A DNA stretch of 64,000 nt from Salinarchaeum sp. IM2453 (GTDB taxonomy: Archaea > Halobacteriota > Halobacteria > Halobacteriales > Salinarchaeaceae). The position numbers were made by a program, and so were the translations under genes. Positions 117-56,825 of the stretch are shown here, in pieces (the stretch's first letter is position 1; each line of letters opens with the position of its first letter). Under the pieces are notes generated by a model that was not told the origin of the DNA, searched no databases, and worked only from the letters and a program-made list of their open reading frames with translations. Where the stretch lies: NCBI RefSeq assembly GCF_019693215.1, contig NZ_CP081183.1:685226-749225 (forward strand), in the 5' to 3' direction.

Positions 117-368
117 ATGGATCATACAGCCACGATCTCTTGCACTTACGACTCTACTGAAATTGCATCGGTAATTCATGATGCAATTGTTATTGAGACC
201 AAGACAATCACGGGTGACAGAGCAACGGCAACAATAAGCCAAAACAAAGCAACGGTGGTTATTAAAATTGATGCGAGAGATCCGCGAGCACTTCGGGCAG
301 CGAAACACACTTGGTTTTCACTACTAAAAGCCGCAGAAAAAACATCTGACGCTGTTTCTGCCGGGTGA
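117..368 (+). CDS. pcc1: KEOPS complex subunit Pcc1
   Basis: This 83-residue protein matches Pcc1 in size and context. Pcc1 is the small dimerising subunit of KEOPS, which makes the universal t6A37 modification of ANN-decoding tRNAs together with Kae1, Bud32 and Cgi121. The sequence has the alternating strand/helix pattern of the family, with the VVIKIDARDPRALRAA segment as the family-like stretch where a strand leads into the dimerisation helix. The start ATG follows the rpo12 stop with no gap, so it probably relies on coupling. A transposon-end hairpin begins three bases after the stop codon. The assignment rests on family pattern and gene order, not on a catalytic motif, because Pcc1 has none. 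Confidence 0.85.
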   Translation: MDHTATISCTYDSTEIASVIHDAIVIETKTITGDRATATISQNKATVVIKIDARDPRALRAAKHTWFSLLKAAEKTSDAVSAG

Positions 369-12612: not shown

Positions 12613-12653
12613 CGTTTGAACTAGTATGTCACAAACAAAGACGAGTATATTAA

Positions 12654-12839
12654 CTTGTGCAGGCTACGTCCCCGTCCTCAAAGAGCGACCAACGGGAGCG
12701 AGTAGGACCGGGATACAGCCGTCACTTAGCCACAGCAAAAACAGTCAACTCAATTGCTAGCAAACACTGAATTGTGACAGGATTTACTCATGAGGTTGGC
12801 TTCGAGTGGGATCATACCCACGATCAGACTTCATCTCGC
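12654..12839 (+). mobile_element. 5' fragment of TnpB-derived miniature element
   Basis: About 186 bases, starting at the C of TTAAC and reading GCAGGCTACGTCCCCGTCC, closely match the left part of the complete 381-bp miniature element at 47313-47693, which also follows TTAA. Shared landmarks are AACGGGAGCGAGTAGG, GATACAGCCGTCACTTAGCC, and TTTACTCATGAGG. Similarity stops around CATCTCGCA, so the 3' half with the tnpB tail and right end is missing. Confidence 0.75.
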
Positions 12840-42225: not shown

Positions 42226-45489
<3,264 letters not shown>

Positions 45490-46769: not shown

Positions 46770-48072
46770 TTATTCGTTGCGGTTGTTAGAGCCAGCAGGA
46801 CTATTATCAGAACGGACACTAAATTGGGCAAGTTTAGTGCTAAGTTCTTGCGAACGTTCAGAGAGAGACTGAGCACCCTGTGAGATTTGAGAAACTGATG
46901 CAGTTTGTTCCTCTGCGGCTGCAGCAACACTTTCAGCCTCAGCATTTGTTTCTTCACTGCTCTCAGTCGCCTCATCGAGCATGTTCACTACCTGCTGACT
47001 TGATGTAGCTTGTTCATCAGTGGCATCGTCAATTGCCTGAATGCCATCATCAACGTCAAGGATGCCGTCTGCAACCTCGTTGATTGCGTCAAGTCCTTCT
47101 TCAACATTTTCAACGCCGGTAGCGACATCCTGTCGCATAGCTCGAATTTCATCCACTGCTTCAGCAGTAGAAGCTTGAACGCCAGTGATAAGTTCATCAA
47201 CCTCGTTGGTGGCTTCGGCGGTCTCTTCTGCAAGGCTCTTGATTTCATCGGCAACGACAGCAAAACCCTCACTGTCGCCGCTGGTACGAGCAGCCTCAAT
47301 AGATGCATTTAACTTTTGCAGGCTACGTTCCCGTCCTCAAGGATCGATCAACGGGAGCGAGTAGGGCGGGGATACAGCCGTCACTTAGCCACAGCAAAAA
47401 CGTTCAAGTCAATTGCTGACGAACGCTGAATTGTGACGGAATTTACTCATGAGGCTGGCTTAGAGTGGGATCATAACCACGGTCAGACTCCATCTCACCG
47501 TCACCAGCAAGTAGGGTTGGGACAATCCGAATCAACGTCTGCGGAGACTGGCACCGCTGTGAGCCTGTCCCAGCGCAGGACAGGGCTTGCAAGTGCCGTC
47601 GTGGAACCAGAAACTCCTGTCCAAAAGGCAGGAAGCCCCGCACTCAACGAAGGAAGGGCACAGCCCGATCGGAGGAGAGCGGGGTAAGTTCACCGCGAGC
47701 ATATTTGTTTGTTCGGCAATATCATCGATGATGTCGACAATTTCTCCAATTTCGCTGATTTCGCCGTCAAGTTTCTCAACACGGGCAGTGATATCCTCTG
47801 CACGTTGGTCAAACTGCTCCATTTCATCTAATGCGTCAGTAGCAACGTCACTTGCATCATCAGCACGACTGGCAACGCGGTCAGAAACCGAGGCTACTTC
47901 ATCAGACGTTGAAGCAATCTCTTCAATAGTGGCAGAAAGATCATTCATTTCCTTTAAAACCTCTCGGAACCGCTCGGTCTGTCGTTCAGTTGCAGCAGAA
48001 ATCTCTTCAGCTGATCGGCTTACCTCATCACTCGCTTGATCTACTTCCTCAACGCCGATGGAAACATCCTCA
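46770..48072 (-). pseudogene. Methyl-accepting transducer, truncated and interrupted
   Basis: Only the cytoplasmic signalling half remains. Its N-terminal end (sensor, membrane helices, HAMP) is gone: the frame begins at EDVSIGVEEVDQASDEV, where a transposon-end remnant cuts in at 48064-48099. The hairpin tip is then split at IVDIIDDIAEQTNMLA / LNASIEAARTSGDSEGFAVVADEIKSLAEETAEATNEV by a 381-bp miniature element (47313-47693). Without the insert, codons A (GCG) and L (TTA) would join in frame. The C-terminal helix to SNNRNE at 46770 is intact. Two separate damages make it non-functional. Confidence 0.88.
47313..47693 (+). mobile_element. 381-bp miniature TnpB derivative in the transducer gene
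   Basis: Its left border follows TTAA and opens CTTTTGCAGGCTACG; its right border ends GGGGTAAGTTCAC before the transducer's CGCGAGCAT, both defined by restoring the transducer frame. It contains an 84-codon frame (47433-47687) whose second half, VGLGQSESTSAETG... and AGSPALNEGRAQPDRR, matches the tail of TnpB. So it is an internal-deletion derivative of a TnpB element, movable only in trans. The 5' half closely matches 12654-12839. Confidence 0.85.
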
Positions 48073-48099
48073 GGTCAAGCCCCGTGGCATCCGCCTCGG
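48064..48099 (-). repeat. Solo TnpB-element right end cutting the transducer 5' side
   Basis: ACATCCTCAGG then TCAAGCCCCGTGGC, sharing the ACATCCTC lead with the copy at 1371 and the loop TCAAG with the copies at 372 and 20038. It marks where the transducer's N-terminal half is lost. Confidence 0.6.
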
Positions 48100-48302
48100 T
48101 TATTCTATGAAATAGTCTCGGAGCAATTCCCGAAAGCACTCAGCCCGCGCTTCTGCTAGCTCCTCCAAGATTGATCTCTAAAAGGCGGACTCTGGTACTG
48201 GAAAACTTTCATACCAATCCAAAGGCCGATATATAGCCATTTCCTACAATCAGACAACAACCAGATGGTTACTCAGATGATGCAGCCACGGAGGCAAGAA
48301 GA

Positions 48303-49562
48303 ATGCGTTTTGATGTAAAGACACTTGAGACATTTAATCAACTTGCCCGTGAAGGAACAGAGAGTGCTGCTAACTCACTAGCAGATCTACTTGGGACACA
48401 AACAACAATTGATATTACGGCTGTAGAAATTGTACCGCTGCCTGATCTTGCACTTGAGTTTGCCGGAACAGAGGTTCATGGAGTTGAGATTGGGTTTGAC
48501 GGAGGAATGCGCGGGTCAGTGATCTTAGTATTCGATGAAGAAAGTGCTCAAACATTGGTACAGGAAATGATACCTACGTCAATGGCAACGGACGAAGCAA
48601 TGTATGAAAGTGGTGTAACCGAAGCAGCAAACATCATGATAGGAGGGGTACTTGGAGCATGGGGGGAGCATTTTGAAGAGAAGCTTCAGCCAGAACCACC
48701 AGAATACATCCACGGTGATTGGGAGATCGTAGTTCCACAGACAATGCCTGCATGGACGGGACATCAAGCAATTCTCTCATTTGCCAGTCGACTTCGGTGT
48801 GAAGAACAAGAACTTGATTTTGATATCTATATTCTTCCAGAAGAGCGGTCGTTTGAGTCGATGGTCGGAGCAGTAGACGGAGACGAGGCTTCTGAGCTAA
48901 GCGTCGAAAAACTCTCAGTGTTTAACGAGATGACGAAGATCGGAGCAAAAACCGCATCAAGAAAAATCACTGAGATGACTGATATACGAACAACGGTTGA
49001 TATCAGTCGTATTACTGTTGCACAAACAAGAGATATCGATGCTATTCTCGGAAGCTCAGAGCGGCTTGGAGCGGTGGCGACATTAGAAGAATCTCCAAAC
49101 GGGATTGTCGCAGTTCTATTTGATACAGACTCAGCCAAGACGGTCGGAGATGCAATGCTACCGATGGCAATTGAAAGTGATAGCCTGACAGATCAGCATC
49201 ATGCGGCGATTAAAGAAATCGGAAACATGATGATCTCAGGATTTATTGACGGATGGGCAAACGTGCTTGGCCGAACAATTCAGCATTCGCCACCGGAGGT
49301 AATCAAGGGCGGTGCCAAAGAGAAAATGATTGAATCACAGCTGGTCAATGCACACGATGAGGAACATGTGTTTATTATCAACTCAGCGATCAAGCAACCT
49401 GGAGGGGAAGTCGACTGTCATCTTGTTGCCTTACCGACTAAAGACGGGTTCCTGCAGATAATTGAAGACGTTTCTGTTGAGACAGCGACAGAGGCAGTCC
49501 ACCAGCCAGAGATGTTGCAAGCAGCAGACTACGAAATAATACAAAACGAAATAGAGGATTGA
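48303..49562 (+). CDS. cheC: CheC-family protein with two CheC domains
   Basis: A 419-residue protein made of two CheC/CheX-like halves (about residues 1-200 and 205-419). The first signature is SGVTEAANIMIGGVLGAWGEHF, the second AAIKEIGNMMISGFIDGWANVLG, both with the E-x-x-N core followed by PPE (EPPEYI, SPPEVI). CheC dephosphorylates CheY-P in chemotaxis. Tandem forms occur in haloarchaea. No other chemotaxis gene is intact in the window; the upstream transducer is ruined, so its role today is uncertain. Confidence 0.85.
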   Translation: MRFDVKTLETFNQLAREGTESAANSLADLLGTQTTIDITAVEIVPLPDLALEFAGTEVHGVEIGFDGGMRGSVILVFDEESAQTLVQEMIPTSMATDEAMYESGVTEAANIMIGGVLGAWGEHFEEKLQPEPPEYIHGDWEIVVPQTMPAWTGHQAILSFASRLRCEEQELDFDIYILPEERSFESMVGAVDGDEASELSVEKLSVFNEMTKIGAKTASRKITEMTDIRTTVDISRITVAQTRDIDAILGSSERLGAVATLEESPNGIVAVLFDTDSAKTVGDAMLPMAIESDSLTDQHHAAIKEIGNMMISGFIDGWANVLGRTIQHSPPEVIKGGAKEKMIESQLVNAHDEEHVFIINSAIKQPGGEVDCHLVALPTKDGFLQIIEDVSVETATEAVHQPEMLQAADYEIIQNEIED

Positions 49563-54910: not shown

Positions 54911-56107
54911 ATGATTTCTGGTAGTTCACCTCTTGATCCGGATCAGATTTCGGAGTTAACCTCAGATGAGCTCCGACAACGCATGTCAGAGTTAGTGTAC
55001 TGGATTGAGGATGGAACAGCAGATAAACGGGTGACAGCTGCATGGGGACTATGCCAAGCAGCAACAGAGCATCCAAAGTTAGCAGATGAAATCCGTCATC
55101 AACTTAGACAGATAGCAACGAAGGAAGCAGACCTTGTCAGACAGTGGCTACGACAGCAGTTTCCACAGCAAATACAGCGGCGAGGGACACCACGTGACTG
55201 GCGAACTACGGACCCATTAGTAGGTGACAAAAAAGAGCTATCGAAGATACCGAAGGATAAAGTTGTCAAGGAAAACCGGATCACACTGGGGGTAGATCAG
55301 ACAGACGTCGCTATTGAGAAGGTGATGGAACGGCTCAATAGTAGCAGTTATACTAGAACCTACGTGGTTTTAATTCGAGAACAGAATAATCGACAAGCTG
55401 CACTACTGCGCACCTATGTACCACCAGAGAAAACTCCAGGAAAAGAATTCAAGCAGCAATGTAGGACAGCATTTAATGGATGGAAGCAGGTAGACGATCA
55501 TCCACACATTGCCACCGTATATGATTACGGAGTGTCCCCACATCCATGGATTGTCATCGAGTATGCAGATAGTTCATTGATTTCAGCAGAGAAGACATCA
55601 GTTGTAGCAGCGCTGGAAACAAGCTACCGGTTAGCAAAAGCTGTTGCACACGCACACGAACGAGGAATAGCACATACTGCAATTGATCCATCACAGGTTA
55701 TGGTACAGGACGATGACAAGGAGTTAATCGTCGGATTTGGCATTGATACTGTTCTCAGTAGTGTGGATAATACAATCTCGACTGACCCCCGGTTTGCAGC
55801 GCCGGAGTACTTTGGAGAGCAGTATGGACAACGAGACTGGGCAACAGATATCTATCATCTTGGCACGACGTTTTATTACATCTTAACTGGAGAGATACCA
55901 GCAATACAGACAAAAATGCAAACGACAAAGCAGGCACTTCGGTCAATTGAGCCACCATCAAGCATTCACGAAGATATCCCAGAAAGTACAGATAGGATTG
56001 TGCAAAAAGCACTGGCAACGCGAAAGATCAGGCGGTATGAATCAGCTGATGAGATGTGTAAGGATATCAGAGACGCAATGGCAACAGTAAGAACCGATCA
56101 TGACTGA
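54911..56107 (+). CDS. Kinase-fold protein lacking catalytic residues (pseudokinase)
   Basis: A 398-residue protein with an N-terminal helical, HEAT-like region (DGTADKRVTAAWGLCQAATEHPKLADEI) and a kinase-like domain from about residue 150. The fold markers remain: VIEYAD hinge, AHTAIDPSQVMV in the place of HRDxKPxN, GFGI in place of DFG, APEY (297-300), and DIYHLGTTFYYILTGE. Catalytic Asp (HRD) is Ala, the Asn is Gln, the DFG Asp is Gly, and the ATP Lys in strand 3 reads AALLRTY. All three catalytic positions are altered, so it should be a binding or scaffold pseudokinase. The following membrane gene overlaps it by 8 bases. Confidence 0.8.
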   Translation: MISGSSPLDPDQISELTSDELRQRMSELVYWIEDGTADKRVTAAWGLCQAATEHPKLADEIRHQLRQIATKEADLVRQWLRQQFPQQIQRRGTPRDWRTTDPLVGDKKELSKIPKDKVVKENRITLGVDQTDVAIEKVMERLNSSSYTRTYVVLIREQNNRQAALLRTYVPPEKTPGKEFKQQCRTAFNGWKQVDDHPHIATVYDYGVSPHPWIVIEYADSSLISAEKTSVVAALETSYRLAKAVAHAHERGIAHTAIDPSQVMVQDDDKELIVGFGIDTVLSSVDNTISTDPRFAAPEYFGEQYGQRDWATDIYHLGTTFYYILTGEIPAIQTKMQTTKQALRSIEPPSSIHEDIPESTDRIVQKALATRKIRRYESADEMCKDIRDAMATVRTDHD

Positions 56108-56825
56108 GATGTTTGGAACCGTTAGCACCACATTATCAGATGGCGGGGCATTGACGATACTGATTGGATATGTACTTCTTGTGATCGTGAGTGCTCGTAT
56201 GGGAATACTTTCATGGCGTGCCAGTCGTCGCGCTGGTCGGCCACAAATCGGCCTGTGGCGATATTTTCTGTTTGTCGGGCTCGCCGGGAGTATAACGGGC
56301 TTTGTTGGACTTCTTGAACTACTAACGGCGATGAGTGGGATGACTGCTGTGCTATTACTCGGAGTTGCAGTCTTGCTAGCGTTGACAATGCGAGAAGCGT
56401 ACTACACAACCACACTATCAAATACGGAGACAGAACGCTTTGGACAATTCCAGTTCCGGCAGGCAGGAGAAATACTATTAGTCGTAGTAGTACCGATTGC
56501 AGCAATTGGTGTATTTGTAACTAATTCACCAGTTATAACAGGCGCAGTTGCCATCGCTGCACTCATTGCCATCGGATACGGCGTCTACTTTCAGCAGAAG
56601 CGAATACGTGAGCCAGCTACTCGAGGGACACTGATTGACACGTTATTACGACAGTCATTACCAGTACTAGTATTCACGGGGGCGGCAGCAGTAGTCCCGC
56701 TCTTCGAGCAAATGGAAGATGGTGCTGCAATTAGTTATGCAGCAACAACAGCATTTGTACTCCTGAGCGTTGGATTTTTGTTATCAATCTCGCTCAAATT
56801 AAGCCAGCATCTAACAACCCGCTAG
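56100..56825 (+). CDS. Seven-helix membrane protein, unknown function
   Basis: A 241-residue membrane protein with seven predicted helices (such as ILIGYVLLVIVSARMGIL, TAVLLLGVAVLLALTM, ILLVVVVPIAAIGVFV, AATTAFVLLSVGFLLSI). Loops are short and no signature is visible; I do not know a matching family. Its ATG overlaps the pseudokinase stop by 8 bases, so the two are coupled and probably work together at the membrane. The gene ends 80 bases before the convergent RecJ-like gene. Confidence 0.65.
   Translation: MTEMFGTVSTTLSDGGALTILIGYVLLVIVSARMGILSWRASRRAGRPQIGLWRYFLFVGLAGSITGFVGLLELLTAMSGMTAVLLLGVAVLLALTMREAYYTTTLSNTETERFGQFQFRQAGEILLVVVVPIAAIGVFVTNSPVITGAVAIAALIAIGYGVYFQQKRIREPATRGTLIDTLLRQSLPVLVFTGAAAVVPLFEQMEDGAAISYAATTAFVLLSVGFLLSISLKLSQHLTTR

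Follow-up and report, generated by a model that had tools for sequence, protein, structure and literature searches.

Membrane-associated pseudokinases are known from bacteria, and the families with membrane segments have been reviewed (PMC12599244). For example, in MviN/FhaA of M. tuberculosis and in ActPs3 a multi-helix membrane protein carries a pseudokinase domain that has lost all catalytic motifs; MviN combines its flippase core and extracellular portion in one polypeptide, its pseudokinase domain controls a lipid-II flippase pathway, and it is regulated by PknB phosphorylation. EssB/YukC of type VII secretion and ActPs2/GLW are likewise pseudokinases that associate with the membrane, where they serve a structural or scaffolding function. 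In archaea, seven of the eight kinases of Halorientalis regularis are counted as pseudokinases in a survey cited in PMC10211241, in whose accessible text they appear without a described operon partner, architecture or function.

The haloarchaeal gene pair described here, a pseudokinase with a HEAT-like front followed by a seven-helix membrane protein (7TM), resembles each of these systems in part. It shares with MviN and ActPs3 the lost catalytic motifs and the association with a multi-helix membrane protein, but is encoded by two genes, and it differs from MviN in its HEAT-like front, in a seven-helix partner that matches no MurJ family, and in a genome with no PknB-type kinase over the cut-off; the combination of a pseudokinase with a MurJ-type flippase in one chain is thus absent. 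EssB/YukC and ActPs2/GLW, in contrast, are bacterial, carry a (C-terminal) membrane anchor in the same chain, and have neither a 7TM partner nor HEAT repeats. Like the present protein, the surveyed archaeal pseudokinases are haloarchaeal kinase folds without catalytic residues, and some pseudokinases of the pair may be among those already counted in kinome surveys. An earlier sequence-only reading of this DNA had held that such a pair is not described in archaea. This stands for the pair, since searches of the open (non-subscription) literature found no description of a pseudokinase-7TM module or of the 7TM family, but it has to be narrowed for archaeal pseudokinases as such, which are already known from surveys (PMC10211241).

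The analysed stretch of DNA, hereafter the window, comprises 64,000 nucleotides (685226-749225) of a haloarchaeal genome that is 2.66 Mb long and assembled as one contig. The coordinates and frames of both genes were exact on re-check, as was the 8-base overlap that had been said to tie them together (Table 1).

Table 1 Features of the pseudokinase-7TM pair, in window positions unless residues are given.
Feature	Position	Strand	Basis
HEAT-like + pseudokinase gene, 398 aa	54911..56107	+	ORF; Pkinase E=3.3e-15; AlphaFold2 pLDDT 87.6
HEAT-like helical N-terminal region, residues 10-91	54938..55183	+	model helices; HEAT matches in homologues
Pseudokinase domain, residues 134-397	55310..56101	+	bilobal model strands/helices; Foldseek match with PknB of M. 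tuberculosis at E=4e-13
Beta-3 Lys position = Arg167	55409..55411	+	aligned with 16 intact kinases of the order (Lys in 14)
HRD position = His255-Thr-Ala257, catalytic Asp lost	55673..55681	+	Asp in 0/64 paired homologues vs 16/16 controls
DFG position = Gly-Phe-Gly (275-277)	55733..55741	+	alignment; Asp retained in 33/64 paired homologues
APE motif retained (297-299)	55799..55807	+	Pro298-Glu299 in 64/64
8-base overlap, kinase-fold ORF / 7TM ORF	56100..56107	+	sequence
Seven-helix membrane protein gene, 241 aa, no known family	56100..56825	+	AlphaFold2 pLDDT 90.3
7TM helices	residues 14-44, 47-75, 81-105, 110-140, 144-170, 178-204, 208-240	+	AlphaFold2

The product of the upstream gene has a protein-kinase fold. 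It matches PF00069 (Pkinase) over residues 178-382 at the E-value given in Table 1 and PknB at the sequence level (E=1.7e-18), and PF00069 is matched by all 38 of 38 members of the pseudokinase family. The AlphaFold2 model bears the assignment out: a mean pLDDT of 87.6 is reached over an all-helical front and a bilobal kinase, and the best fold matches in Foldseek are M. tuberculosis PknB and Stk1 (E=4e-13). The front consists of helices at residues 10-14, 18-34, 37-53, 57-65, 71-83 and 85-91, compatible with its earlier description as HEAT-like; HEAT models (HEAT_2, HEAT_EZ or HEAT) match 7-10 of the 38 homologues, while the window protein itself has no Pfam HEAT match. Within this region, R40 is conserved in at least 90%.

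The HRD Asp and the catalytic-loop Lys and Asn that mark a canonical Ser/Thr kinase (PknB/Hanks type) are all replaced in the window protein, where the Lys has become Asp259 and the Asn Gln262. With the beta-3 Lys and the DFG Asp missing as well, all three residues of which a pseudokinase lacks at least one are lost from a preserved kinase fold, which also retains the F-helix Asp313 and the H-helix Arg375. The sequence-only reading had called these three losses (here HTA, GFG and Arg167) and the retention of APE and the F-helix Asp correctly. Motifs were compared in common columns across 64 paired homologues and 16 ordinary kinases of the same order, and as the latter align with HLDLKPEN and DWG (Lys in 14/16, Asp and Asn each in 16/16), the motif alignment is right and misalignment can be ruled out. 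No paired homologue has an intact catalytic Asp, which is replaced by Gly (40), Ala (19), Ser (3), Cys (1) or Thr (1), while the APE Glu, the F-helix Asp, the H-helix Arg and the His of HRD are invariant across all 64. Whether all three residues are always lost had been left as a check, and the answer is mixed: the HRD Asp is gone throughout, and all three are gone in the window and its family (f1), but the beta-3 Lys survives in 5/64 (families f5 and f4, genus g28) and the DFG Asp in 33/64, mostly as DWG in families f17 and f12. The residues that bind nucleotide erode lineage by lineage, the catalytic Asp alone being always lost.

Some members may therefore bind nucleotide, as the DFG Asp or the beta-3 Lys is retained in part of the family, and SelO and SidJ provide precedents (PMC12599244) for a kinase fold that keeps an unusual catalysis, such as AMPylation or HRD-independent phosphotransfer. 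For the present family this is very improbable, as the catalytic Asp is lost in all members, the catalytic-loop Lys is substituted in almost all, no replacement residue is conserved, and the window member additionally lacks the beta-3 Lys and the DFG Asp. Even less probable is that the pseudokinase allosterically activates a canonical Ser/Thr kinase, a common mode of pseudokinase action with many eukaryotic cases (PMC12599244). Beyond the paired protein, nothing in the window genome passes the Pfam family cut-off for Pkinase (two of its four weaker matches were read and look RIO-type), and in its two nearest relatives the paired protein is the sole Pkinase match over the cut-off; the absence of any other such kinase disfavours this role. 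A defence-system kinase was ruled out, as the PADLOC matches (PD-T4-6, MAD6 and PglW defence kinases) are generic and limited to the kinase domain, with none to the 7TM protein.

The downstream partner is predicted by AlphaFold2 to form exactly seven long helices (pLDDT 90.3). Its earlier designation as a 7-TM protein of unknown family holds: among 40 family members no Pfam or NCBIfam model was matched over cut-off, a profile search of PDB sequences gave no match, and a Foldseek comparison of the model with solved folds returned nothing at E<=0.001. GPCRs and microbial rhodopsins, among them the sensory rhodopsin II (SRII) of N. pharaonis, head the list of non-significant fold matches (E 0.008-0.07, TM-score 0.4-0.65), the best GPCR-type match reaching E=0.0077 and a TM-score of 0.60 and so falling short of assignment to the solved receptors; such a ranking might be what any seven-helix bundle would give. 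Arg and Lys lie in the odd-numbered, predicted cytoplasmic loops, with loops 1 and 5 (40-50 and 166-180) and the C-terminus rich in both, suggesting an N-out/C-in topology. In this predicted orientation and in helix number the protein is like SRII and the GPCRs. In contrast to SRII, however, none of the 40 members matches the Pfam family Bac_rhodopsin, the hhalign probability between the 7TM profile and SRII is 0.6%, and no invariant retinal-binding Lys was found in helix 7, where the sole candidate column holds 26 Lys and 41 Arg. The profile comparison and the missing Lys rule out a rhodopsin.

Conservation of the 7TM protein is 1.2-1.3 on its outer face and climbs to 2.3 in the half nearer the cytoplasm, where W53, R98, Y160, G161, G176, T177, D180, Q185 and Q236 are conserved. 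This gradient fits the docking of a cytoplasmic partner without proving it. The charged and polar residues of the inner half (R98, D180, Q185, K/R233 and Q236) would also suit the main rival explanation, in which the 7TM protein functions as a transporter or as a membrane-bound enzyme, nothing is sensed, and the HEAT-pseudokinase is a cytosolic regulatory subunit, as in MviN. Membrane-tethered pseudokinases such as MviN and EssB are known (PMC12599244), and a solo 7TM branch shows that the membrane protein can also occur unaccompanied by the pseudokinase. We nevertheless consider this explanation rather unlikely, given that neither profiles nor solved folds yielded a transporter family or a significant transporter match and that 241 residues in seven helices are small for a transporter.

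Of 293 genomes in the order, 74 encode the 7TM protein, representing 19 of 87 genera, and a search of 393 genomes of the phylum with the 40-member profile gave 27 matches, all in the same order and none outside it. At 64 of 67 loci (66 others and the window), spanning five families, the kinase-fold gene immediately precedes the 7TM gene on the same strand, so that the linkage proposed as a check on the pair extends well into other haloarchaea. At the three exceptions, the kinase-fold gene is 3.4 kb away on the opposite strand (L073), or the 7TM gene has no kinase gene within about 9 kb (L079 and L109). Outside the Haladaptataceae (f17), an in-frame 7TM start overlaps or abuts the kinase stop in 41 of 46 adjacent loci, whereas within that family 28-1104 bases separate the two genes, and translational coupling of the pair is therefore not universal. 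The flanking genes vary from family to family; in the window's own family, 3/3 genomes have the pair flanked by Elp3 on one side and by another shared gene on the other. Viral contigs scanned with the exact 20-mer of the gene start gave no match.

The kinase and 7TM trees conflict with taxonomy in the same places, with genus g28 of family f4 falling among f5 and genus g80 of f5 grouping with f1. These common departures indicate that the pair moves as a unit. Pairwise distances of the two proteins correlate at 0.94 over 64 loci, a value that in part reflects species relatedness. The pair is thus inherited as a unit and has probably also been transferred between lineages as one; linkage at 64 of 67 loci in differing contexts, together with trees that depart from taxonomy alike, rules out chance neighbours. 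The pseudokinases form a single branch separate from the ordinary kinases (support 99). An unpaired branch in f4, with 13 members lacking the catalytic Asp, is nested inside the paired pseudokinases and fits a later duplication.

Several loci depart from this pattern. A second haloarchaeal pseudokinase branch (L145-L148, L150-L152 and L156-L161) has HGGIDP in place of HRDLKP and no 7TM neighbour, and some of its copies adjoin the gene for a thermosome-type chaperonin or for a regulator of the Lrp type. The solo 7TM branch (L181-L191; E about 1e-18) is distant, has no kinase neighbour and occurs in family f8, in genus g28 and, as a single case, in genus g42 (L189). At L085, in one genome, both genes look broken: the 7TM gene contains a stop and the kinase gene is spread over two frames, as though the two were decaying together.

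In family f4, genes for SRII and its transducer HtrII lie divergently beside the pair at about 16 loci in six genera with differing outer flanks (L066-L069, L071, L072, L074, L076, L082, L092, L093, L096, L099, L103, L105 and L106). This arrangement would suit a phototaxis or chemotaxis accessory of SRII and its transducer. Outside f4, however, the pair has no such neighbours, no SRII match was found in the window genome or its two relatives, and many genomes of genus g20 (f4) encode SRII without the pair. The link to SRII is therefore not obligate, and an accessory role is improbable, being unsupported as a general one outside f4. In f17, a HalX response regulator is encoded 2-4 kb downstream of the pair in most loci; neither the SRII nor the HalX neighbours reveal function by themselves. 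Elsewhere in the window, a methyl-accepting-transducer-like gene lies in pieces on the minus strand (46770-48200) and adjoins a CheC/CheX-like gene (48303-49562); a segment inside it (47309-47496) is 89% identical to window positions 12650-12837 and is probably a miniature mobile element that interrupts the gene. A GyrB frame of 1077 aa (42226-45459, minus strand) looks enlarged by a putative intein.

Given such consistent joint inheritance, the two genes probably make up a signalling unit of the cell membrane that is non-enzymatic and has not been described before. We lean towards a stable, non-catalytic membrane complex of two proteins, a receptor and a scaffold, for which we infer the physical contact, the sensing, the scaffolding and the effector. 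The seven-helix protein would act as the receptor, sensing something in or outside the membrane, and its conserved cytoplasmic face would dock the HEAT-pseudokinase. Rather than phosphorylating, the latter would serve as a scaffold that can be switched: its kinase fold would shift shape according to what state the 7TM protein is in, and its HEAT helices would form an arm that may hold or release a soluble effector. More tentatively, archaea may have a receptor system in which a 7TM protein of N-out/C-in orientation, with no relationship to rhodopsins, passes its signal on through a tethered dead kinase that bears a HEAT arm, conformational change taking the place that G proteins or phosphorylation have elsewhere.

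In the plasmid copies inspected, PGAP labels the two genes as 'HEAT repeat domain-containing protein' or 'protein kinase' and 'hypothetical protein', and labels this generic hide the module in current annotation. Kinase-fold signalling in archaea is poorly understood, and the pair adds to it a conserved archaeal pseudokinase described at residue level and an unclassified 7TM family. In the window genome, where the kinase is dead and no other canonical kinase passes the cut-off, a purely non-catalytic role would be testable without interference.
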